Below are positions 1 to 53,930 of a stretch of DNA of 64,000 nucleotides, piece by piece. Origin of the DNA: Diphasiastrum complanatum. Lineage: Eukaryota; Streptophyta; Lycopodiopsida; Lycopodiales; Lycopodiaceae. The stretch covers positions 41,597,719-41,661,718 of the forward strand of contig CM055095.1 of NCBI GenBank assembly GCA_029204225.1, in the 5' to 3' direction. The notes below the pieces were generated by a model that did no database searches, was not told where the DNA came from, and saw only the letters and a program-made list of their open reading frames with translations. The first letter of the stretch is position 1; each line of letters begins with the position of its first letter. A program made the translations under genes and the position numbers.

Positions 1-132
1 ACATACCAGTATAGCTGGCCTGCCCGCACGTCGTGGCGATACGCCATTGCTCATATCGCCATCATGCACCTCCCATGTCGAATACCTGCTTTCCCTGCTC
101 GTTGGTGCGTCATATCGATATCCTACCCTGCA

Positions 133-1842
133 ATGGCCCGTACCAAGCAGATAGCCCACCTTACCACATTTACCCCACCTCCTCGCCCTCCTCTACAAAG
201 GACAGTGAGCACTGGTAGGAAAGTAGGTCAGCCCAGAAGACCATGGTTAAGGGATATCAGGAGACTTCAGAGGACCATGAATCTTCTGATTCCCCGTGCT
301 CCTTTCTACAGGTCTGTGAGACTGGTAACAAGGTCCCTCTCACATGATGTTTGGTGGAACATAACAGCGCTGGAAGCCCTCCCTACTGCCTATGAGGACT
401 TCCAAGTCAAATTCTTTGAGGACTCCACGCTTTGTACAGTGCACGCTAAGAGGGTTACCTTCATGCCTCAGGACATGCATCTTGTCATGAGGCTGAGGAG
501 TGCATACGATCAAGTCTTTAAAAGTGGCTTCACTTCTAGGACACCACCTACAGAGAGAGGTCTTGTTCCTCAACGAAGAAGGAAGCAGACCAAGCCCACC
601 AGGCCTGCCAAGCAAAGGGTGGTACTCAGCGAGTCACCATCCCCCCCTCACATCTCTCATCCTTTGGTTGGACCATCACACCAATCTGCAGTGCTTTCTT
701 CTCCTCCCACCACCCCTAACTATTCAAGTAGTTTCTCTTCCATTCCCTCCATTCCATCCCACAATAACGAGGATATGAACTCGACTGTAGATAAAATAAT
801 ATCGGATCTAGATTTAAGTTTAATAGGTGGATTTTATAAGGATCTTTGTGTAAGATTTCTTGTTGATCCCAAAGATTCATTTTTGGATTTTGAGAGGTAT
901 ATAATTTTTGATGAGTATGTTGCCAAAGAAATTGACAAGCTAGGAGGTCAGTTTTCTTTTTGTCTAAGTTCAATCAATTATATAAATCACATAAATAAAG
1001 ACTTTTGTGATGCCTTGAAGGAGAAGACCTCAGATATATCAGTTCCAATTGTGGAGGCTGGTTTGATGTATTTTGTAAATAGATGTCAATGCGATGATAC
1101 TAAGGACATTGGAGTTGTGCTGTCCTTTTTTGCACACAACCTTCATAGTCCAACTAAGGCGACGAAGTATCTTCTCCATACAAACTCGGAAACCAAAGTC
1201 TTTATTATTCCATACTGCCAAAAGTAAGTGATTACATAGAATATATTCTAGTAATATTTTTAATAGGTATTGTAATTCTTTTAGTTTAACTAATTATCTC
1301 TTGTCTGCAGTAAGCATTGGAGTATGCATATAATCTCCCTTAGGGAAGATTCAGATGGGATCATTAATCCCATCTGTTTAAAGATGAACTCCTTAAAGTG
1401 TACCCATGCTAAAATGGACGTGATGTACAACATAATGTTGCCATTTTTGCCAAGGCCGGATGGGGCCACTATAAATAGCCAACTGGAGATTGTTGATGCA
1501 GAAGTAAGTATTTCTCATCAAGTATTTGATAGGTAATATGATCTGTTTTTTTCAGAGCACAACTAACCTATTATACATTTTGTGATTGAAGTCAGCTCAG
1601 CAAGAGGATGGACATAGCTGTGGATGGTTCTCCATCCGCAATGTACAGGACTTTTTAGAGTGGTACATCATGCAATCCAGGGCTCCAGATGTACGAATGG
1701 TAAATAGACTAGTGAATGGCCTAACTAAGTTATTTTCGATTTGGTTTTTGATAAGTCAATTGACTCGGTTCTTTTGGATTTGCAGCATAAATGTCAAGCA
1801 TTTTCAATGAATGAGATATATGATATATACAGATGTTGGTGA
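133..1842 (+). CDS. Histone H3 (CENH3-like) fused to Ulp1/SENP-type cysteine protease, 4 exons
   Basis: Exons 133-1223, 1311-1503, 1592-1699 and 1786-1842; the three introns (86-88 bp) are GT-AG and every junction keeps frame, giving 482 residues. Residues 1-125 are a divergent histone H3: MARTKQ start, LRDIRRLQ (39-46, alpha-N), LCTVHAKRVTFMPQD (100-114). From residue 51 to 123 the match to H3 is gapless, roughly four in ten identical by eye. NLLIP (50-54) and Trp74/75 recall plant CENH3, but loop 1 is not lengthened. Residues 133-215 are a basic Pro/Ser-rich linker. The rest is a clan CE (C48) protease that would cleave SUMO-like conjugates: His366-Trp367, Asn390 where Asp is usual, Gln432 and Cys438 in QEDGHSCG. 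An in-frame ATG at 64 exists, but 133 gives the canonical H3 start. The histone half is GC-richer than the protease half. Activity and location are unknown; a chromatin-targeted SUMO protease is inference. Confidence 0.8.
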
Positions 1843-2130
1843 ACTTATTATCTCATGCAACACCCAATCCAGCTGTGGAAACGGGAGGCCAATCAAGTCC
1901 ACAACTGACACTAGTGCAGGGTGGAGATAATCCATACTACTTTGAGCTGTAAATAATAGATTAAATAGAGATATACATTTTTGATGTAATGCCCTGTGAA
2001 TAATTATGGGCATATAGAAAGATAGAGACAATGAGAAAAAAGCATCCATTGTTAAATATAGGACACGCATGTACATTCTCAGAAAATGAGAAATATATTG
2101 ATATTTATGAGAGCTTTTACAAATCTTGTA

Positions 2131-3495
2131 TCACGATTGCTCTATTATCTGAACAATTCCGTCCAAATCTTTGCATTTGATTTTCTCTTCATGTCTTTTA
2201 CGTATCTGCACAAACATACATTAATCAGATTATAGTTAGTGATCCGAATATTGACAAAAAGGGTAATGAATATAAATTAATATACAAATTCATGGATTTC
2301 ACATACCAATTTTCCATCCAATATAAAATTGAAATATTCAGGGATATCTTGCTGTAAAAGTGTCAGTTCCGTTCTAATGTAGAATAAGGTCCAATCTTGC
2401 TCAACCTCAATAGTAGTAAGTAAATCCCCATTTGCCATGATATCAATGCCTATACAATCAGTGTGTCCAATGTTGTCTAGATCTTGATCTAATGGGGCCC
2501 AAGTACCATTGTGTTCTTTCCATCTCTGATAATAAAACACCATACTAAGCATTTGCTTTTCTATACTGTATCTAAATGATATGGATGAATGTTTGATTCT
2601 ACAAGAAATATCTACAGTGCATCTTATATCCCAACCTTTGTCCATGAATTTGAATAAAAAATCATCTGAAAGATTTTTGCAAACAAACAATGTGGGAGTT
2701 CGATGCACTTCCGTGTTTGAAAAAGAGCTGACAAACAATGACATTGGAACAAACCAGCTTAAGTGCACATTTCTTGTTCCTATACTAGTTTTGAGTGACT
2801 TTTGTACATCATTATATAGCTTGGAACGAAAGCATTTTATTATATTGTCGTTGACTGCAATCCACCACACGTTATCTTGAAAATTATGTAGAGGTATATA
2901 CTCTAGTTTTTCCATTCCTCCATTTTTGTCTGAAATATACATAGCATCATAAAAAAGTATTTCATAATTTGCAAGTTCTTTTGCCGTTCGTCCTCTATAT
3001 TGCAATTTGCCAATTTCTGAATGGATGACATCCATAATACCAAAAAGAGACGCCACAGGTTCCCATTCATGTATATCTGAAGGACATAGATTTGCAATAC
3101 AAAATCATAATAAGCTCCAATTCATAAATACGATTACGTGTTAAAAATGACAAGCAATCCAAAAAATTAAGATACTTACAATTACACTTTCGAAAATCAT
3201 GTGGATTTACAGCCTCCACATTAAGTTCTGAATGCATATAAACATGTTGAATAAGCACCTCTGAAATGGTTTGTCCTCTTGGAGAAACTTTGAAATCAAT
3301 AATCCACCCTTTCCAATAAGACCTATATGTATACTTGGCCTTTTTCTTTTGGCGAAAAGCCCCTCTCGCCGATGGATGCATCAGTACCCAAGAAGCCTTA
3401 TGATATTCACGAGCAATCCATGTGCCATCGTCTTCTCTCTCATTATAAAAAATTGCAGAGCATATCAAGGATCTCGGTCTCCTTCTCATCGCCAT
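2131..3495 (-). CDS. Unrecognised spliced gene, 3 exons, 386 aa
   Basis: Read on the minus strand, exons are 3495-3180, 3076-2307 and 2205-2131; introns of 103 and 101 bp have donors GTAAGT and GTATGT and acceptors TTCAG and TGCAG, and phases agree. I do not recognise the protein. The N terminus is basic (MAMRRRPRS), followed by a Trp/Tyr-rich segment; the middle is Cys-, Phe- and Trp-rich without a membrane segment or signal peptide that I can see. The C-terminal PEYFNFILDGKLIRKRHEEK loosely recalls a small beta-grasp-like fold, but that is only an impression. It converges on the histone-protease gene; the 288 bp between the two stops hold no gene. An intact frame over three exons argues against an old pseudogene. 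It may be a second cargo gene of a DNA transposon ending near 3832. Confidence 0.6.
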
Positions 3496-3832
3496 AGCTT
3501 AAAGAGTTTACTTTTGAACTCATCAATATGAGAGTCCAGAGTATAATAGGCGCCAAACCTATTTGTGAGTCCCAAGATAATTTTAACTTGAGGTTAACCA
3601 AGTAGTTTAGTCAACCAGTCGTCACGCACGCCAACCAATAGTATGCTTCCAATCTAACGGATTGGAAATTCAAATTTGCCCAAATATGAATTGTGTTTTC
3701 CGGGTCAGGCGAGTTATGTTACATAGAAGCCACTATGTCAAGAACCGTTTGGGCCACATGGACATAAACAGAGAGGAAAAAAAAAAAAACTCGTAACAAA
3801 TGGCCCTTCTAAGTTTGAGAACTCCTATAATG
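3496..3832. mobile_element. Subterminal region and right end of a putative TIR DNA transposon
   Basis: The last ~110 bp (about 3720-3832) resemble the outer part of the MITE copies at 6677, 39193 and 52442: the end reads AACTCCTATAATG here and AACTCCTCTAATG in two of those copies, preceded by a related A-rich tract. Immediately right, at 3833, an LTR begins in mid-sequence, colinear with 6276-6399, as expected if the transposon inserted into that LTR. A matching left end is either a weak inverted copy near 3541 (a short MITE) or lies left of the window, in which case both upstream genes are inside the element. I could not find a convincing target-site duplication. Confidence 0.4.
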
Positions 3833-3956
3833 AGATTTGTTAATAGATTGCAGGATTGCTCTACAGGTGTTCTGTGTGCCATCACAAAGCATGGTCAAGA
3901 TCATTCACACATTTCTTGTGGATCCCCACACGTGTGAACTTGCTGGATTTTTCACA
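3833..3956 (+). repeat. Truncated left LTR of element X
   Basis: Colinear over 124 bp with 6276-6399; ends TTTTTCACA directly before the primer-binding site and carries the CACACGTGTG palindrome at 3927-3936. Confidence 0.85.
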
Positions 3957-15411: not shown

Positions 15412-18230
15412 CTAACTCCACAAATGTTGAATGCTTGAAATATTATCAAGGCTCTCCTTTTCAGCTGAAAAAGTTGATGACCTATCTTCTTCATTAGAGT
15501 CTATCGACAAATTCTCATCTGAATCAGCATCCAATGTCGAGAGAAAATTGTTTATTGTGGCTTTGCTGCGTTGAATCCGAGTCGAAGATGATGGTTGTGC
15601 ACTTAGCCCAAGCCGTTCTTGTAAAATAGATATTGTGGACTTTTGTGAATGGTTCGTCATTGTTAACTCAAAATTAAATGCAAGCACATCCACATCTTCA
15701 GGATTTATGTCATTGACTTTTGGTTGGTTCTTTGCACGTTTCTGCTTGCCTCTTGGATCTAATTGCAACATTTCTAGTTCGTACCTTCCCAAGAAAGCAT
15801 TTGTTGAAATGGTACGCATCCAATGCACATGCACAATCTTGGTGTCGTTGCTCTCAATGAAGCCAATCACTTTAGCAATCCAAAATGGATGACTTTCGCT
15901 ATTTTTCGACACCAAAAGTGCAATGAGACTCCCGACCTTTAATTCATTGAGGTTACTAGACCATTTCGCATTTACAGTTCATCGACTTTTTCTTGAACCC
16001 AAATAAATTTCACGTTTTTCGTTATGAAGAAGATTTAAAGACTCAGTCCGTTCTGGAACAACAGAGGAATCAACGGCCGTTGTTGAAATTGAAGATCTAG
16101 TTGGCCACTGAAATTCTTCAGACAAGTTTGAGTCTCCTAGATCAAGCAAACGTATTTTTTGCTCCTCAAAAAAATTCGTCCACCAATGTCGATTAAACTC
16201 GTCAAAAAACTAGTATGTTGTTTGGATGGTTGTTTCCAAAAAGTTTAACGCCACAAATGGATCGACTGGCCGATGTTCCCTTTGAGCTTTTTGCTCATCC
16301 AAGACAAAAGTTAGAGGACACAAAGGTGCAAGCTTAACTTGAGAAGAAGACACAGATTGTAAACTCCTTGAGAAGGTAGCCATGCCACTAAGTTAGAGAA
16401 TTGCTTTCCCTACAATAATGTGATGCCACCAACATTATTAGCAATTTTGAACTAATGTTGGAAACTAATATCACTTATTGGTGCGATGCAATGTTCTTCT
16501 GACGTTTTGATGTAATCTCTAAAATCATATGTGCAACGCAATAAAACCACATTTCGTGCAGGGGTGTATGAATCCTCGATAATACTTTGTAAAACTGGTA
16601 AAGAAAAAACTTTTTGCGTCTGCTTTTTCAAGAAGCAACTGAACATTTGGTCAATTGATCATGAATGTGACCCACCAGTAAAAATCCTATATTGATTTTT
16701 TTTTTAATCTTCAGAGCGACTAACATTGATAAATATGCAAGCACTGTTTGATTTTTATTTTCTCTGGCAGTATTATCAAGTTGCAAGTAGAGAATCTCAC
16801 GAAGACTATTATCAAATTCAAGTATTATTTTGTGAATTATGGTAATGGTCAAGTTTGGGTCATTTCGAACGTTTGGATAGTTGAAATACACTTTAGACTG
16901 CAAAGTGTCGTTGAATATAAGAGCACCAACCAAATGAACTTGAATAAAATCAACTTCATTTAAATTCTTTGGCACTCTTACAAAATGTGGCATTAGTGTA
17001 TTCTTTTGATCCATCCCGTCGATTACGGGACCAAATACTTTTGAGAAAACTCTTTTTTAGGTATTTTGCAAGCTTTTGTCTTTCTGTTGTCTGTTGCTCT
17101 CTATGGATTTGAAGTGACTTGGTAATGTCTGCTGAAAAAATCACACACACAAAAAAAAATTGAACGTAAGTAATTGGAAGCACAAAAGAAAGTTAATTTA
17201 ATGAGTGAAACAAATTTAAATAGCAATTACCTTTTTCGTGAGACGTTTTCGCCTGATCTATGAGTGCTTTCAGCTGCTCACAGATAGTACAAACAAACAT
17301 TCGAGATTTTTTTGAAATTTTTACTAGAACAAAATCTCTTTTCCACAGCTTCACAAAATAAGAATAACTTAGATGTTGAACATTTTTGGACATTGCGAAA
17401 TCTTTGTACATCATGAATATTTCCAATTTTGTGACATTGTCTGGAAGACAAAAATACAGAGAATTTGGAAATTTCTCGGCTTTCACATTAATGAAATGAG
17501 TTAACTACACTTTCACGGCTAAGCAATCCGGAGAAACAGTTCAGAACCTTGAAGGCTTGGATCTTTTTGTAACCTCGTGTCAATGCTAGCAAGTCTTGAG
17601 TTTCCAATTGCATGAACACCATTGAAAGCTTTACGACAAACTTCAATTGTTTCCAAAAAATAAGCAAACTTTTTCGATCAGACCTTATAGATGAACAAAG
17701 ATAATAATTTTGATCAGTTTTTCTCTTTGAAAAAAACTTTGTTCAAATTTGCCTAATTTCAGCAAAGCTTAACTTTGTAAACATGAGGAAACACAACAAC
17801 CTATGTTTCTGACTTTACGGATTTCTTGAGGTTCGAGCAATTGATTTTGACGCCTCGTCAATTCACAACTTGCTTGTAAATCCCTTCAAAACTTGTCTTG
17901 GCCCTTGGATTCTACTCTGTAAGAGGAACTTGGTACATTAGCACCTAACGACTCTGGTAATATTGAAGTTGTACCTCATATGTGTGCTTCTCGAATGTCA
18001 ACTGCATCGTCTCCTTGATTTTCACCAGAAGGCTTTGCACTTTTAGAAATATTTTTTACATTAGAAAATATTGATCTTTTTGATTTTATAACATTGGATC
18101 TAATGGTTCTTCGTGTCTGTCTTGCCCTATTTAGAGAACGAGTTCCTTGACGTGGGATTGTAGACTGACTTGAATCAGTAACTAAGTGTTTGCTTGTTCC
18201 TGCAAAATTCACTAGTTTGAATTGAACTTG
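15412..18230 (-). pseudogene. Decayed DNA-transposon transposase (DUF7869-like, RNase H fold)
   Basis: Read on the minus strand. An N-terminal basic region (18212-17976) is followed by NGVHAIGNSRLASIDTRLQK (near 17630-17570), VSYSYF-like and VCTICEQLK segments (17486-17193), then the core LQLDNTARENKNQ and FLLVGHIHDQ (16830-16650) typical of DUF7869-type DDE transposase relatives. After that come an acidic/Ser-rich tail and a HPFWIAKVIGF segment (15915-15700) that may be a small chromatin-reader or BAH-like fold. The frame shifts at least twice in the N-terminal third, and there are in-frame stops between 16390 and 15915. I found no terminal inverted repeats. The family name is from memory of the motif pattern. 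Confidence 0.55.
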
Positions 18231-19009: not shown

Positions 19010-19815
19010 AAACCTATGGTGAGCATAAATGTAACTAGGGGTTTTGCAAGCGAGAGCCCATGCTAAGCATAGGTCATAGGTCCTATGTCAACCCATGCTT
19101 AACATATATTTTCTCTTGACCTAGGTCGAGCTTGGACTTATGCTGAGCATAAATATTGTCTCGACCTATGCTGAGCATAGGTCTTGTCTCGACCTATGGT
19201 GAGCATAGGCCGAGACAAGACTTATGCTCAGCATAAGTCCGAACTCCACCTATACTCAACATAAGCTATTGCTTGGACCTATGCTCAACATAGGTCGAGA
19301 CAAGACTTATGCTCAGCATAAGTCCAAGCTCGACCTATGGTCACACCTATGCTCAGCATAGGTCCGAGCTCGAACCATGCTCAACCGCTAACTTATGTTG
19401 AGCATAAGTCTTGTCTCGACCTATGCTAAGCATAGGTTTCCTAAGCATAGGTCGAGACAAGACTTATGCTCAGTATAAGCCCGAGCCCGAGGATAGGTCG
19501 AGACAAGACTTATGCTCAGCATAAGTCCCCTCTTGAGCATAGGTGGAGACGAGACTTATCCTGAGCGTAGGTCGAGACAAGACTTATGCTCAGCATAAAT
19601 CCCATCTCCACCTATGCTCAAGCGGGGACTTATGTTGAGCATAAGTCTGGTCTCGACCTATGCTTAGCATAAGTCAAGCTCGGACACTTGCTGAGCATAA
19701 GTCTTGTCTCGACCTATGCTCAACATAAGTCTGAGCTTTAACATAAGTCCCCACTAGACCTATGCTCAGCATAGGTGGAGACTATGTTGAGCATAGGTGG
19801 AGAGAGGATGTATGC
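19010..19815. repeat. Array of about 25 short palindromes (TATGCTnAGCATA)
   Basis: The core TATGCTGAGCATA or TATGCTCAGCATA recurs about every 28 bp, flanked alternately by CTTGTCTCGAC and its complement GTCGAGACAAG, so cores and flanks can pair into larger hairpins. Core variants (TTGAGCATA, CTCAACATA, CTAAGCATA) show divergence between units. The array runs up to the Gypsy integrase fragment at about 19845. Confidence 0.9.
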
Positions 19816-19839
19816 TGAGCATGGGTTTAATAAGAGACT

Positions 19840-39192: not shown

Positions 39193-39556
39193 CATTAGAG
39201 AAGTTCTTAATCCAAAAAAGACCCTTTGTAAAGATTCTTTTTATATTTTTTCTCAATTTTTTCTTACACATGGACCAATCAAAACACTCAAATTTGAAAT
39301 CTATGTAGCATAACTTTTTGGGTCCACACTAAAAATGGCATAACATTTTAGTGGTAAGTCTGGATTTAGTGAAGTTTTGTGCACTGAAAAGCGCTCGACA
39401 AGGGCTTTCCAATGATATGTTAAATGACATATTCTAAGCTATGATTAAAAAGTTATGGAAAGTCAAAAGTATTAGTGTTATAATATTTTAATAATATAAA
39501 CTATATCTTGTACGAATTCTTAAAGGGTCTTTTTGAAACTCAAAACTCCTCTAATG
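39193..39556. mobile_element. MITE copy (CATTAGAG family), 364 bp
   Basis: Left end CATTAGAGAAGTTC then AAAAAAGACCCTTTGTAAAG; right end TTAAAGGGTCTTTTT then AAAACTCCTCTAATG: imperfect terminal inverted repeats of about 45 bp. No coding capacity. It lies between the gag and protease regions of Copia A. No clear target-site duplication is visible. Confidence 0.8.
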
Positions 39557-41710: not shown

Positions 41711-42357
41711 TGTGAAAAATACAGATCCTAAGTGGATCTAAACTCCAAGATCATTGGCTTGAATGCTTGCACTCCAAACTACATAAGCTAGGAATTGGCA
41801 ACACATTCTATGCTACCTAGAATGCAAAGAACTTGATCAAAAAGCATTTATCACAAATGGAAACTTCCATAAACATCAAGTGCGGCCCAAAATAGCATTA
41901 TACAGTCCATAATACATCAGCCTACCACTTTTGGAAAGCACCTAAGATCATACACACAAAGCTTGAACTCAATCACTACACAATGCCAACAATGGAAGGA
42001 GAACCCAATAGAAAAATCTCTCATTAAGCAAATGAATACAATGGATCTGCTCCAACCTGTTTCTCCACGGCCTACCTGCTATATATAGCTGAGAGAGATG
42101 ACTCTCTCTCCTCTCTCTAGACCCTCCTTACCTAAAATATGCCCTATATAGGTAAAATTGGCATATATGTCCAAAATACATGAAAATGGACTCATTTCGA
42201 AGGTCTTGAAGTTTGACACTTCTTCATACTGAAAAAATACACTTACTAAAAATATCTAGACCTGTTTCACACGTGTGAAAAGTCAGATCCTAAACTATGT
42301 GCCATTTTTAGCAATTTTGGCCTAAAACTAGACAAGGAAATGTTGACAATTTTCACA
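41711..42357 (-). repeat. 3' LTR of the gag-only element
   Basis: 647 bp; palindrome TTTCACACGTGTGAAA at 42265-42280; TATATATAG promoter-like sequence near 42070. Confidence 0.9.
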
Positions 42358-42370
42358 CTCCCTCTTCAAC

Positions 42371-45300
42371 TTAACTTGCTAGTTTTACAACACTACTTTG
42401 TTCCAACTTAAGAATGATCTCCATCATCAGAATAGATCTCTTCTCAAGGATCCTAATATGTACAAAATAGGACACAACATAATTGATATAGATAATAGTG
42501 TCCATATAGGATGCTTCACTATTTCTTACATCAATTTTACATAGAATCATAAAAATGGTACATGTAAAAGAACATAGAATCTCAATTAATGAATTCCTCC
42601 ATGTATCCATCTCTGGTTTCTCTGTAAAATAGCAGCAAACAAGTTGTAAATGAAAGTGATCAACAAGTGTTTGCATGCCTCCTCCACATTTCACTATACA
42701 TATAGTGAATGCAACATGTATCTCCATGAATGAACTTCCATCACCACCTTGCCTTTGTAGATCTTCAATCCATGAAAGCCTTTGAGTGAATGAATGCCAA
42801 AAAGATGTGTTCCCTACTCCATTTGAATGACCAAAACCTGAACTTGAAATACTTGAAGTACCTCCACAAGATTTGCACACAACGCTTGATCCTACAATGT
42901 CAACAAGTTGCCAATTTGCCAACACTAGAATACTAGATCTTGAACTTTGTTCAAAAGAAAACATATTGACCACTTCAATACCTTTCAAGATCTGAATGAA
43001 TTCATGTACTTGATCATACAAACCAGCAATGATAACTATTCCATCTCCAAGATCCAAAGGATGCAAAACTATGGAACTAGTTTTATTGAAATTTGACAAT
43101 TTCAACACATTGACATAACAATGTTCATACATGAGATTAGGCAAGTGAGGTAGAGTAAGAAGACACTTCCTTGCAGCTCCAAAGACCTTACTTGAACCTT
43201 CAAGAACCTGTAAAAACAGATCCAAAATGCCTTGACCATTTGTCTCTTCTTTGATGCTTTTCACTAGCTTCGAATTGCCACTTGTCTCTTGGTGTTGATG
43301 AAGCAATCCAAGATCAACCTCTTGATCTTCCAATAAGACATCAAAGATCTTGCATATGTGAACATCTTCAGATCTGAAACTCTGAAGATACTCCCTCTCA
43401 AACACATGATTAAGATCCCACAAGATCTCATCAATGCTCAAATTTGACCCTTCACTATAGTTAGTGAAAACAATGCCACCATCATAAACCAAAAGATAGA
43501 TTCCAACATTTCCATTTAACATGAAGTAGAGTAGGTGAAGATGAGTATCAAACCTAATCAAAACAGCCCTCTTGAGTTCATAACAAACCTCAATAAGCTC
43601 ACCAATGATATCTCCCTTGCCTTGAAGAAGTTGCCACTTGAGTTGCTCCATGTAGTCTTCTTCAACCAACCTTTTGCCATCTTGACCATGAATGAACAAT
43701 CCACCACAATCATAGAATGCTTTGAGTTGATGAAGAGATGTTAGATCCATGCTTTGGATCTTCCCAAGAACCACTCTTCCATTGCCCTTTCCTTCACAAG
43801 ACTCCCTCTTAATGCTAGCACCACAAAAGTTAGAAACCTCCCTCTTGATAGTTGCACCATAAGAAGTAGAAGACTCTTGAATATTAGAAGCCAAGAAAAG
43901 AATCCTTAGTACCTTCAACATAAGAGTGATTGAAGTACTCTCTCTTTTCAAACATGAACTTCTACTCAATGATTTAGGTAATGAGTCATATGATAATGAT
44001 TCTTCCTCACTATCGTTCATAAAAACATCATTCAAAGTACATCCTACTTTGAACACTTCACATACTTCTCTTCCTTTTGACTTGTGATCTCCCTCACCAA
44101 GTCTCATGATAGAAACCTTTGATCTACTCTTTTTATGAAGAAATGTGACACCACTTGTTGCACAAATGACTTTATCACAAAAAGATGTAAAAGAACCATT
44201 TCCTTCAAGCATGCTCAAAGCACCATCATCTTTTCCCACATGATTACATACATCAATATGAAAAGAATTAGAAGAACAACCATCTTCTTGCAAAGAATGA
44301 CACTTAGCATCTCCATCTTTTTCCATATGAACAAACAAGTCATTAGCAACAATCACTTCCAAAGAAGAATCTTCATCAACTCCATTGATGAAGTTAGCTC
44401 CTTCCTTACCTTTTCCATTTTTGCACTTGCCATCTAGCACCATTGAAGAACCACCAAGCCTTGGAAGTCCATGAGTAGAAGAGTACAAACATGATGCTAA
44501 TTTAGCTCCACATGACTCCATATGACTAGTAGGTAACACTAGTGCATCTTCAAGATCCAATGGATCCAAAAAATTGACCATAGATTCACCAAAGCTTGCC
44601 AAGTTAGCACAACAATTATCATCTCCAAGAAGTACATTAGATCTCAACCTAGATCTAGCATTTTGTTTCTTATGGCATTCATTTGCAAAATGTCCTTTCA
44701 CTCCACAATAAAAACATTTGAACTTGGACTTATCTTGCTTCCTACTTTTCAAAGAAGAAGAATGCTTTCCATGCTCCAAACTACCTTGCTTGGACCACTT
44801 GCCTTTGAACTTGCCCTTTGTGAAAAGAGCTTCTTCATCTCCACCTTGTGTTGATGCACCACCACCTTTGGCTTGCAACCTATGCTCTTCAGCCACCAAG
44901 ATCTCTTGCAAGTCATTGACACTTGGCAAGGACTTTTGTATAGCAAAGCATTGTACAAGGTTAGAATGTTCATCAAGCAAACCATTCAACATGACTTGAA
45001 CTAGTTCCCCATCCTTTATGCTTTCATCTATGCATGCTAGATCATCATTCAAGGATTTAACCTTCAAGACAAATGAATGTGCACTCTCTCCCTCTCTTTG
45101 ACAACTTTGGAAGATTTGCCTTCTTAGGGTGAGAACCCTAGATGTGGATTTGGACTCATAGATCTTCTTCAAAGCATTCCATGCTTCACTTGAAGAAGTA
45201 CATTTACCAACTTCTTTAAGAAGTTCATTGGTAACATTCATCTTTATGATATGTAAGGCTCTTTTAGCCCTTCTATCAAAATTTAGTTGCTCTTGAAGAA

Positions 45301-45511
45301 TTAGAGGTCTTTCTTCAATTCCCACAACTATATCCATTAGCTCATTCAACTCTAGTAAAGACTCCATCCTCACTTTCCAAGTTGAATAGTTTGTAGAGTT
45401 TAACCTCTCTTTAGCTTCCAACATGATTCCACCATTGGATGTCATGATGCTAAAATCTTCTTGTGTCCTTAGGCTCTGTTCTAATGCACCTAGCACTCTC
45501 CTTTCTCTCAA
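42371..45511 (-). CDS. Gag plus long unknown extension, 1046 aa, intact
   Basis: Single uninterrupted ORF. Residues ~30-220 are Copia-type gag (NSTNYSTWKVRMESLLELNE; IIKMNVTNELLKEVGKC, UBN2-like) and a CCHC zinc knuckle follows (CFYCGVKGHFANEC, about residue 270). The remaining ~750 residues show no protease, integrase or reverse transcriptase. Their end carries CKIDVRNSEASYMDT, matching modules in elements X (near 4.95 kb) and Y (57.3 and 58.0 kb). Gag would package the RNA in cytoplasmic particles; the extension's role is unknown. An ORF this long kept open in a young element suggests it was under selection recently. Confidence 0.85.
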   Translation of the reverse strand: MRERRVLGALEQSLRTQEDFSIMTSNGGIMLEAKERLNSTNYSTWKVRMESLLELNELMDIVVGIEERPLILQEQLNFDRRAKRALHIIKMNVTNELLKEVGKCTSSSEAWNALKKIYESKSTSRVLTLRRQIFQSCQREGESAHSFVLKVKSLNDDLACIDESIKDGELVQVMLNGLLDEHSNLVQCFAIQKSLPSVNDLQEILVAEEHRLQAKGGGASTQGGDEEALFTKGKFKGKWSKQGSLEHGKHSSSLKSRKQDKSKFKCFYCGVKGHFANECHKKQNARSRLRSNVLLGDDNCCANLASFGESMVNFLDPLDLEDALVLPTSHMESCGAKLASCLYSSTHGLPRLGGSSMVLDGKCKNGKGKEGANFINGVDEDSSLEVIVANDLFVHMEKDGDAKCHSLQEDGCSSNSFHIDVCNHVGKDDGALSMLEGNGSFTSFCDKVICATSGVTFLHKKSRSKVSIMRLGEGDHKSKGREVCEVFKVGCTLNDVFMNDSEEESLSYDSLPKSLSRSSCLKRESTSITLMLKVLRILFLASNIQESSTSYGATIKREVSNFCGASIKRESCEGKGNGRVVLGKIQSMDLTSLHQLKAFYDCGGLFIHGQDGKRLVEEDYMEQLKWQLLQGKGDIIGELIEVCYELKRAVLIRFDTHLHLLYFMLNGNVGIYLLVYDGGIVFTNYSEGSNLSIDEILWDLNHVFEREYLQSFRSEDVHICKIFDVLLEDQEVDLGLLHQHQETSGNSKLVKSIKEETNGQGILDLFLQVLEGSSKVFGAARKCLLTLPHLPNLMYEHCYVNVLKLSNFNKTSSIVLHPLDLGDGIVIIAGLYDQVHEFIQILKGIEVVNMFSFEQSSRSSILVLANWQLVDIVGSSVVCKSCGGTSSISSSGFGHSNGVGNTSFWHSFTQRLSWIEDLQRQGGDGSSFMEIHVAFTICIVKCGGGMQTLVDHFHLQLVCCYFTEKPEMDTWRNSLIEILCSFTCTIFMILCKIDVRNSEASYMDTIIYINYVVSYFVHIRILEKRSILMMEIILKLEQSSVVKLAS

Positions 45512-46607
45512 TAAATGAAGAAGGAGAAGATCTTAAAAGATTTAGAACCCTAAATGACCTCTATCTTGAAACTATTTGGCTTTCAAGCATAGAAAGGAAG
45601 ATTGAAACACATGCAACACTTTGCACACACTAAGAATGGATTACAAACTCAAACCAACCTGAACACACTCTTGCTTAAACTCTCAAACTTTCCAGCAAGT
45701 GACCAAATCAAGTTATGGTGTGAAGAGTTACTTGCATTCTTAGAAAATACCCAAAACTAGGATGCCAAAATTACCTAGTAATGAACAAACTTGATCAACA
45801 TATGATCACCACACTAAGATATTGATTCAACCTGTAAAACCACATGTAAACCACACTTCTAAAAGTTTATAAACTCCAGCAAGTGATAAATACAAGATTT
45901 AGAGGTGAATGAATGAGCACACTTAGTGAATCACAAGACTAGCTTCACTATCTTGTCAAAATTTGGTGTTTAGATGTAGATCTAAGATCACTTCACATGA
46001 GAATGTTCCTCAACCTGTTAAGAACCTGAAAACACACTTGCATAATGGTTAACACCTTCCAGCAAATGCTCCAATCAAATTACATAAGGAGAGTTACTTA
46101 CATGCTCAACAAAGTACACCAAAATTTATGCCAAAATTGATGACAATCTTTACAATATGCTCTTCACAATGGAGCTTACAATATGTTCACCCAAAAAAGG
46201 GGATCTTTCATCCAAATGGGAGCTTTGCTCAGCCTTTAGGAGAATTACAACTCACTCAAAAGAGCATTTGTCATCCACTTAAGGAGAAGTTTCATCCACT
46301 TAAGGAGAGTGTTCATCCAAGAATGGAGATTGTCAACAATAGGATTGAAAAGAACATTGTTAGTATTGAATATGCACAAGCCTCACAATCAACAAATGAT
46401 TAGGTGTTATGATCTGATCCAAAATAGTTTCTTTTCAGCCTCTGATCTTCAATAGACCTGAAATATGCTTTTGATCCACAAGTTCAACTCACAAAACAAA
46501 GGTTAGTAAGATTTGATCAACAAAGCAATGCAAAATCATGCTAGAACTTGATCAAACATCCAAATATCACCAAAAATGGAATACTTACTATGAATAGAAG
46601 CCAACCA

Positions 46608-46619
46608 GCTCTGATACCA
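46608..46619 (-). other. Primer-binding site of the gag-only element
   Basis: TGGTATCAGAGC on the minus strand, next to the right LTR. Confidence 0.85.
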
Positions 46620-47266
46620 TGTGAAAAATACAGATCCTAAGTGGATCTAAACTCCAAGATCATTGGCTTGAATGCTTGCACTCCAAACTACATAAGCTAG
46701 GAATTGGCAACACATTCTATGCTACCTAGAATGCAAAGAACTTGATCAAAAAGCATTTATCACAAATGAAAACTTCCATAAACATCAAGTGCGGCCCAAA
46801 ATAGCATTATACAGTCCATAATACATCAGCCTACCACTTTTGGAAAGCACCTAAGATCATACACACAAAGCTTGAACTCAATCACTACACAATGCCAACA
46901 ATGGAAGGAGAACCCAATAGAAAAATCTCTCATTAAGCAAATGAATACAATGGATCTGCTCCAACCTGTTTCTCCACGGCCTACCTGCTATATATAGCTG
47001 AGAGAGATGACTCTCTCTCCTCTCTCTAGACCCTCCTTACCTAAAATATGCCCTATATAGGTAAAATTGGCATATATGTCCAAAATACATGAAAATGGAC
47101 TCATTTCGAAGGTCTTGAAGTTTGACACTTCTTCATACTGAAAAAATACACTTACTAAAAATATCTAGACCTGTTTCACACGTGTGAAAAGTCAGATCCT
47201 AAACTATGTGCCATTTTTAGCAATTTTGGCCTAAAACTAGACAAGGAAATGTTGACAATTTTCACA
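46620..47266 (-). repeat. 5' LTR of the gag-only element
   Basis: 647 bp, one mismatch to 41711-42357; palindrome CACACGTGTG at 47177-47186. Confidence 0.9.
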
Positions 47267-52069: not shown

Positions 52070-53930
52070 AAGCATTGACCTTGAGATTACTCCAAGATTA
52101 GATCTATGCTTGATGAAGGCACTCTTGCTCAAAGGCTTGGTGAGTAGATTAGCAATACAAGAGGATGTGTTGACATGCTCCAAATAGATTTCTCCTCCAA
52201 TAAGCTTTTCTCTCACAAAGTGATGTCTAGTCCGTGTAGCCAACAATGGATAGATCTTCACTTTTATAAAGTAGACCATAGTCACAAGATGAAAATACAT
52301 ATCTTAGAATCCTCTTGGCCATCTTCCAATGATGGATCTTGGGATCTTGCATAAATTGACTTAATTTGTGCACACAAAAACTCAAATCGGGCCTAGTGAT
52401 AGTAAGCCAAATCAAGGAGCCTATAAGACTCCTAAAAAGTGCATTAGAGGAGTTTTGAGTTCCAAAAAGACCCTTTAAGAATTCGTGCAAGATGTCTTTT
52501 TTATTATTAAAATATTATAACACTAATACTTTTGACTTGCCATAACTTTTTAATCGTAGCTCAAAAGTTGCCATCTAACATATCATTGGAAAGCCCTTGT
52601 CGAGCAATTACTAATGCACCAAACTCCGCTAAATTCGGACTTACCACCAAAATGTTATGCCATTTTTAGTATGGAATCAAAATGTGGACTCAAAAAGTTA
52701 CGTTACGTGGATTTCAAATTTGAGTGTTTTGATTGGTCCATGTGTAAGAAAAATTTGAGAAAAAATATAAAAAGAATCTTTACAAAGGGTCTTTTTGGGA
52801 TTTAGAACTCCTCTAATGGTGATGTCCTCGACGGATCTTTCATCACCTTTGTTAGGATCTCTCACAATTTGCTCCATTGGAGTATCTATGCTCTTATAAT
52901 TTTCCATTTGGAATTTTTTCAACATAGAATGAGCATACCTAGATTGACATATAAAAACAAAATCATCATGAAAGTCAATCTCTAGGTCTAGTATGTAATG
53001 GATCTCTCCTAGACCTTGCATTTTAAACTCACTTCCAAGTGCTAGCTTAGTTTCTTTAACTAGCATGATACAACTTCCACAAAGAATAATGTCATCAACA
53101 TAGATTAGAAGAATGACAATATTACTATCAACAAGCTTTAAATACATGGAAGGATCATAGTCCCTAAGGTCAAATCCTAGTGAGATAAGAAAAGTGTTGA
53201 GTCTTGAATACCATGATCTTGGTGCTTGCTTTAGTCCATAAAGACTTTTGAAGAGCAAGCACACTTTGGACTCATCCTTGATGAATCCTTGAGGTTGTTC
53301 CATATAGATCTCCTCCTCAAGATAACCATTTAAAAAAGCATTGGATACATCTAATTGAAACACCTTCCATTTGAAAAAACAAGCAAGAGAAATAAGAATT
53401 CTTATTGTCACCATCTTTGCAACAGGTGCAAAGGTCTCCTCATTGTCAAGGCCATGGATTTGAGCAAATCCTTTGGCACATAATCTTGCCTTGAACTTGT
53501 TGATGGTGCCATCATGATTGTACTTGATCCTAAATACCCACTTGCAACCAATCACATGCTTGTTGGATTGTAGATCCCAAGCTCCCAAGTAAGGTTGGTG
53601 ATCAATGCATCATACTCTTACTTCATGGCATCATACCACTCCTTGGTATTGAGTGCCTCTTGTACATTCTTTGGCTCTTTATGAGAAACAAAAAAAGCAT
53701 AATTAGTGGAATCAAGATCCACTTGCTTGCCTTTATCAACATATTAGAGCCTCTTAGGCTCGGATGTACCTCTCATGGATTCTTCTTGGTGAAAAAAGAA
53801 GCTCTTGAGATTGGGGTCTCTGATATAAGAGAGCTTATATCCCCTTTTCTCGAGATAAGCTTCCTTTTGAAAAACTCTATTCCCTATAATGAAGTCGGGC
53901 TTAGTGACAAGCCTCATCTAATAACAATAC
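52070..53930 (-). mobile_element. Copia element D (fossil), reverse transcriptase and RNase H
   Basis: Minus strand: a long open reading with reverse transcriptase (CKWVFRIKYNHDGTINKFKA, FQLDVSNAFLNGYLEEEIYM, LLIYVDDIILCG; 53588-52820) and RNase H pieces (TITRPDLSFCVHKLSQF, 52410; HVNTSSCIANLLTKPLS, 52170). A MITE (52442-52818) lies between. LTRs and gag are absent. It has few breaks outside the MITE. Confidence 0.8.
52442..52818. mobile_element. MITE copy (CATTAGAG family), 377 bp
   Basis: CATTAGAGGAGTTTTGAG at the left and GAACTCCTCTAATG at the right, with AAAAAGACCCTTT and its complement just inside: the same family as 39193-39556 but in inverted orientation. It sits inside the reverse-transcriptase/RNase H region of Copia D. 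Flanks give at best a 3-bp duplication (GTG). Confidence 0.8.

Follow-up and report, generated by a model that had tools for sequence, protein, structure and literature searches.

At the left end of a 64,000-nucleotide stretch of the Diphasiastrum complanatum genome (hereafter the window; G000:C4:41597719-41661718, in an assembly of 1.74 Gb), a sequence-only reading had described an H3 histone fold and a Ulp1/SENP-type (C48) protease signature sharing one frame of four exons with canonical introns. The locus raises the question of whether such a fusion is real, what kind of gene carries it, and what a histone joined to a protease might do for its bearer. The explanation preferred below, at a rough probability of 40%, is that a transposon-encoded H3 variant lacking lysine 9 (K9) takes a SUMO-type protease to chromatin, where the fusion would act as an anti-silencing factor.

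The histone-protease gene and its copies

The fusion of an H3-like histone with a Ulp1-type C48 protease was confirmed, as that reading had proposed. Four exons joined by GT-AG introns (window positions 133-1842, forward strand) encode 482 residues in a single frame, and profile searches for the two domains placed both above their Pfam cut-offs, PF00125 (Histone; 74.7 bits, cut-off 26.4) at residues 22-122 and PF02902 (Peptidase_C48; 24.8 bits, cut-off 20.7) at residues 348-457. The features of the window copy are listed here by window position.

1-3832, forward strand: part of the transposon copy inside the window, delimited as DNA common to the copies; homology breaks there
133-1223, forward strand: exon 1, with H3-like tail, histone fold and linker, to residue 363 (open frame, Pfam, copies)
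133-162, forward strand: H3-like N-terminus MARTKQIAHL; residue 9 (H3 numbering) is Leu instead of Lys
196-498, forward strand: histone fold, residues 22-122 (PF00125, E 9.5e-21)
1174-1678, forward strand: C48 match, residues 348-457 (PF02902, E 2.3e-5), interrupted by introns 1 and 2
1311-1503, forward strand: exon 2 (spliced frame, copy alignment)
1592-1699, forward strand: exon 3 (spliced frame, copy alignment)
1786-1842, forward strand: exon 4 as read in the window copy, frame-shifted relative to other copies
2131-3495, reverse strand: gene Y of the window copy (exons 3495-3180, 3076-2307 and 2205-2131); 386 residues, one frame, intact
3797-3832, forward strand: right terminal repeat, ending ..GAGAACTCCTATAATG

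Exon 1 consists of 363 open codons; none of 20,000 mononucleotide shuffles kept that frame free of stops, and each of the other five contains 15-27 stops. A further in-frame ATG is located upstream at position 64, and the ATG at 133, which gives the H3-like start, is the likelier site of translation initiation. The last 16 residues of exon 1 (up to residue 363) are the first 16 of the Pfam C48 match. This match runs from position 77 to 190 of the 217 in the C48 profile and leaves the N-terminal third uncovered; residues 211-347 presumably form the front part of the protease.

The window copy was aligned with 19 other copies of the same type (lineage B1), and the stop at 1842 proved peculiar to the window copy. 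Seven of the 19 continue to a common ending 38 residues beyond it (two near-identical pairs are among these seven), and the remaining 12 are shorter or damaged in exon 4. Because exon 4 of the window copy is frame-shifted, its stop is not the C-terminus of the family.

A protein search of the plant's own genome identified at least 88 places, all of which matched exon 1, some of them partially, at 61-92% identity when the window's own locus is set aside; this is a lower bound for the family, since the best 88 of 12,551 first-look candidates were scored, and first-look candidates are not equivalent to copies. A genome search with the histone profile returned 153 matches, the 150 listed comprising 13 canonical H3 loci and 137 more diverged loci distributed over many contigs, likewise a lower bound with the best 150 of 6,325 candidates scored. 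Nine of the 13 listed canonical H3 loci are on contig C11, several of them close together. The locus under study is one copy of a dispersed mobile family and not a single-copy gene.

Related elements were assigned to four lineages, named B1 (the window type), B2, A and C. The B2 loci (L027, L031, L032/L062 and L028/L063) have the order histone-linker-protease, as in B1, at about 30% identity. In family A the H3 fold ends a long Ser/Arg/Pro-rich tail and genes here termed X and Y are adjacent, and at the single C locus (L022) an H3 fold adjoins gene X; no protease was found in either family within the stretches read. Family A constitutes a second large histone-bearing element family (L064; in L018-L034). 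Frame damage and the absence of the fusion from relatives had together been named beforehand as signs against a real fusion. Many copies are indeed damaged, but the second sign was not observed, because the fusion recurs both in other copies and in the B2 lineage.

The two halves of the protein

The best PDB matches by sequence for the window protein were H3 chains (E about 1e-20), and two structure predictions gave the helix order of a histone fold at low confidence (mean pLDDT 45 and 53). Identity to the genome's own H3 is 39% over 97 aligned residues, and the tail is nearly lysine-free. Residue 9 is Leu in 18 of the 20 B1 copies; in the remaining two the 5' sequence is foreign. Lysine 4 (K4) is retained in 18 of 20 copies, A7 in only nine and R8 in only seven; in 16 of 20, K4 is the sole lysine of residues 1-34. 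The tails of families A, B2 and C were retrieved using a pattern in which K4-Q5-T6 was required and residue 9 was left free. It matched seven family A loci, with Asp at residue 9 in six and Gly in one, the C locus, with Glu, and three B2 loci, with Asp (MDRRKQT[RK]RD). Five more family A loci escaped the pattern; among them, L020 has the sequence ARDP. Lys9 was missing from all 29 readable element-histone starts (18 B1, 7 A, 1 C and 3 B2), where D, E, G or L is found instead, and was present in 13 of the 13 listed canonical H3 loci of the same genome; as the B1 copies are of common descent, the absence counts as about four independent observations at most.

Substitution rates were estimated from the 20 aligned B1 copies, window included, minus five near-duplicates, which left 15 copies and 105 pairs. 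Pairwise dN/dS was 0.25 for the H3 core (bootstrap 0.15-0.44), 1.30 for the tail (residues 1-35), 0.62 for the linker (0.36-1.10), 0.50 for residues 211-363 (0.31-0.88), 0.46 for residues 364-464 (0.29-0.85) and 0.49 for all codons, and the out-of-frame controls gave 0.73 and 0.78. When the bootstrap ranges are compared with these controls, the H3 core is clearly constrained, and the protease parts fall under the controls as point estimates only, their intervals extending above them. Stops are present within residues 1-464 in 17 of the 20 copies and absent from three, including the window copy. The GT or AG of the six splice sites is found, in order, in 19, 14, 19, 20, 19 and 18 of 20 copies, the weakest site being the first acceptor (altered in six).

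The main rival to the preferred reading, judged unlikely, takes the histone half to be derived from CENH3 and to serve as an address that would guide element proteins or insertion to chromatin such as the centromere, with the protease shielding that complex from SUMO-dependent removal. Where canonical H3 has LLIRKLPF, the element histones have LLIP/FLIP..APF or a close variant, a type that we take to be a feature of CENH3, and both the loss of K9 and the fast-evolving tail would fit such an origin. The B2 and A histones also matched the CENP-T and CENP-S profiles, weakly and under the cut-offs. Against a CENH3 origin, all of the 60 top-ranking PDB matches displayed for the B2 and A histones were H3 chains, and no chain among them was named CENP-A or CENH3. 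In the histone tree, B1 and B2 grouped weakly (71/81), and A and C were left unplaced.

The protease half of the window protein contains HW, an Asn at the place that we take, from motif spacing, to be that of the catalytic Asp in C48 enzymes, and Q-x-D-G-x-x-C-G. HW is retained in 19 of the 20 B1 copies. Among the 18 copies with letters at the Asp place, 17 have Asn and one has Asp, and the Cys is retained in 13 of the 15 copies in which the motif was printed, with Tyr in the other two. In B2, one locus (L027) retains HW, Asn and SCGW, and its joined exon pieces matched the C48 profile under the cut-off (E 0.021); another (L062) has lost both HW and the Cys. A His-Asn-Cys triad can be active, papain being an example. 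Judged from these motifs, the domain may have a working triad of this kind, may be a weak enzyme, or may serve only to bind a modifier.

Binding alone is central to a second rival, considered improbable, under which the histone half would titrate H3-H4 chaperones or H4 while an inactive C48 half would bind SUMO or a modifier like it, with no need of catalysis. Such a decoy would accord with the Asn at the Asp place in both B1 and B2, with the Cys lost from two of the 15 B1 copies shown, and with families A and C, which have the histone without the protease in the stretches read. The retention of HW in 19 of 20 copies and of the Cys in 13 of 15, the protease dN/dS point estimates under the controls, and the activity of which a His-Asn-Cys triad is capable speak against such a decoy.

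The element and its gene set

The gene belongs to a DNA transposon, with dispersed copies, common ends and terminal inverted repeats. The aligned copies share DNA from -1302 to a right end at 3832-3838; beyond the left edge of the window, the window copy continues for 1,302 bp and is then truncated by retrotransposon-like sequence. The right end was common to all five long B1 copies compared and, read inwards, is CATTA(C/T)A(G/T)GAGTTCTCAA in four of them; the fifth has differences at two more positions. In both B2 copies the terminus is CATTAGAGGAGTTCTCAA. One B1 copy (L061) carries a similar terminus, with 3 mismatches in 18, at its left end, and a target-site duplication was looked for in B1 and not found. 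Terminal repeats of this type occur in B1 and B2 as well as in small elements within the window. Two such elements of about 370 bp, at 39193-39556 and 52442-52818, have inverted, B2-terminus-like ends (CATTAGAG.AGTT..AAAAAGACCCTTT) and are probably non-autonomous relatives; the second has GTG on both flanks and the first is without a duplication.

Three other features of the window were recorded. Direct repeats of 300 bp, 100% identical and 4,909 bp apart, flank a 1,053-residue open frame at 41711-46919, which looks like a young LTR retrotransposon. A dense array of palindromic 28- and 46-bp units (CTATGCTGAGCATAGG type), with many inverted copies, occupies 19115-19826, and a reverse-strand frame at 16631-17056 has a DUF7869 match (E 1.7e-28).

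Further left in two B1 stretches (L055 and L059/L056) is a frame that is 60-74% identical between B1 and B2. It had no Pfam match over the cut-off and is termed transposase-like on account of its linkage to the histone gene and of what we take to be a resemblance to a transposase. A genome search with the B2 frame gave at least 150 matches at 92-100% identity, most of them stop-free, the best 150 of 8,629 candidates having been scored. Of these 150 listed matches, 16 lie within 10 kb of one of the non-canonical histones listed, against a chance expectation of 0.24, though the 16 pairs are not all independent, since some look like duplicated contigs or segments. Fourteen of the pairs are on the same strand, and in ten of these fourteen the histone is 4,051-4,201 bp downstream.

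Elements of CACTA type (CMC) have the ends CACTA and a Transposase_21-type transposase. Membership of this group was rejected, as the ends here read CATTA and the scanned frames gave no Transposase_21-type Pfam match. A viral origin was also rejected: neither exon 1 nor the transposase-like frame had a relative in the phage records or in viral_contigs, the latter covered by scans that reach close relatives only.

Gene X is common to A and B2 (E 1.7e-12, 36%) and gene Y to A and B1 (E 4.6e-19, 27%), and an H3-like histone occurs together with X and/or Y in all four lineages. The order in one B2 element (L062) is transposase-like frame (+), X (-), histone-Ulp1 (+) and Y (-). In the window copy, gene X is located left of the window in broken frames, and gene Y, which has its homologue in family A, is convergent to the histone-protease gene. 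Neither X nor Y matched any Pfam family over the cut-off. A weak PB1 match under the cut-off at the C-terminal end of a family A gene Y (L064 7166-6591; E 0.011) hints that this protein may have a ubiquitin-like fold; other lineages of these elements carry a Ulp-type protease. Positions of about 7005-7161 in L004 and the window from its start to 121 resemble each other in inverted orientation (61% over 163 bp, E 0.008); the resemblance links the 5' regions of the divergent gene X and of the histone-protease gene, as if their promoters were copies of one.

Two ideas had been offered for the fusion from its sequence, and the one that gained support is that of a transposon protein using chromatin, on the evidence of the copies, the terminal repeats, the linked transposase-like frame and the gene set common to related elements. 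To that earlier account the present analysis adds the family of mobile copies, a tail that lacks K9, the element genes X and Y, and the frame shift in exon 4.

It is also improbable that the gene is a mere passenger, a host histone and a protease fragment captured and multiplied by a transposon that has no use for them. Damage to many copies is what such capture would leave, and a precedent is described in the available text on an H3 carried by a hAT element of Pseudocercospora (PMC6710886); yet the H3-core dN/dS of 0.25, the domain order identical in B1 and B2, the company of X and/or Y in four lineages, and the retained introns and spliced frame all speak against it. A domesticated host gene or an assembly artefact, to which the intact exons 1-3 and gene Y of the window copy might have pointed, was rejected as highly improbable, since dispersed copies carry the same joint and a common terminus and the window copy is itself cut off at the left and frame-shifted in exon 4.

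Proposed mechanism and known systems

According to the preferred anti-silencing reading, the B1 element encodes, besides the H3 variant-C48 fusion, the proteins X and Y and a further one that is transposase-like. The histone half would most likely pair with H4 and enter nucleosomes, or at least bind histone chaperones, and bring with it a tail that keeps K4 but could not be methylated at K9. At that chromatin, the protease half would take SUMO, or a modifier like it, off silencing proteins, and the fusion would thereby act as an anti-silencing factor of its own element. In favour of this reading are the recurrence of the domain order in B1 and B2, the constraint on the H3 core, the terminal repeats, the linkage of histone and transposase-like frame, the absence of K9 and the analogy with VANC. 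Against it stand the wide bootstrap intervals of the protease parts, the tail dN/dS of 1.30, the Asn at the Asp place, the B2 match under the C48 cut-off and the B2 locus that has lost HW and Cys, the stops in 17 of 20 copies, the stretches of families A and C in which no protease was read, and a fern protein that keeps K9. A wider proposal is put forward more tentatively: a group of plant transposons may possess H3 variants without K9 as a permanent gene of the elements, fused in one branch to a SUMO-type protease, and may form silencing-proof chromatin, in which element nucleosomes would refuse the main plant H3 silencing mark while SUMO is stripped from silencing complexes.

Both captured genes in transposons and transposon anti-silencing proteins are already known. 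In the literature searched, which left subscription papers mostly outside and absence therefore unproven, no transposon-encoded constrained H3 variant and no histone-protease fusion was recognised. If the element histones enter nucleosomes, a parasite of the genome would be supplying a naturally occurring H3 without K9, and it would become directly testable whether H3K9 methylation and SUMO hold plant transposons down.

Compared with Ulp1/SENP enzymes (C48, PF02902), the window protein has in common a profile score over the cut-off, HW and Q-x-D-G-x-x-C-G, and differs in the Asn in place of the catalytic Asp, the unmatched N-terminal third of the profile and the histone in front. With H3/CENH3 it shares the histone fold, the MARTKQ start and the HAKRVT-MP-D region, and it differs in that K9 is gone, the tail is nearly lysine-free and a protease follows the fold. 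A search of a protein collection with the full-length protein gave two matches, both through the histone; the histone part as query gave two matches among only 8 candidates, and the protease part gave none. A 312-residue protein of the fern Ceratopteris richardii (P0001) begins with MARTKQTAR and has, as in family A, a long tail followed by an H3 fold (with LLIPRRPF) at the C-terminus. Unlike family A it has kept K9, which speaks against K9 loss as a general rule, and unlike the window fusion it is without a protease.

VANC proteins act against the silencing of VANDAL elements, and a captured Ulp1 domain is present in some VANC genes, its function given as unknown in the portions available of the two reports (PMC13317346, PMC10398659). 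VANC and KAONASHI (KIU), from VANDAL and other non-TIR MULEs of flowering plants, are likewise plant transposon genes with a Ulp1 domain. No histone domain is mentioned for them in those portions (PMC13317346, PMC10398659), whereas the element here fuses one, and whereas their elements are non-TIR MULEs, this one has terminal repeats, and its scanned frames gave no match to a MULE profile. A hAT transposon of Pseudocercospora fijiensis and its relatives has captured an H3, which is present in hundreds of copies inactivated by RIP, as the available text has it (PMC6710886). That system likewise places an H3 coding sequence in a DNA transposon of many copies; all of its copies are described there as inactivated, whereas the frames here are open and constrained and the H3 is diverged and fused to a protease. 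The excerpts on VANC and on the fungal hAT element join histone and protease domains in neither case. By analogy, VANC would be the nearest working model for the fusion, and the fungal hAT element is the nearest precedent for a transposon-borne H3.
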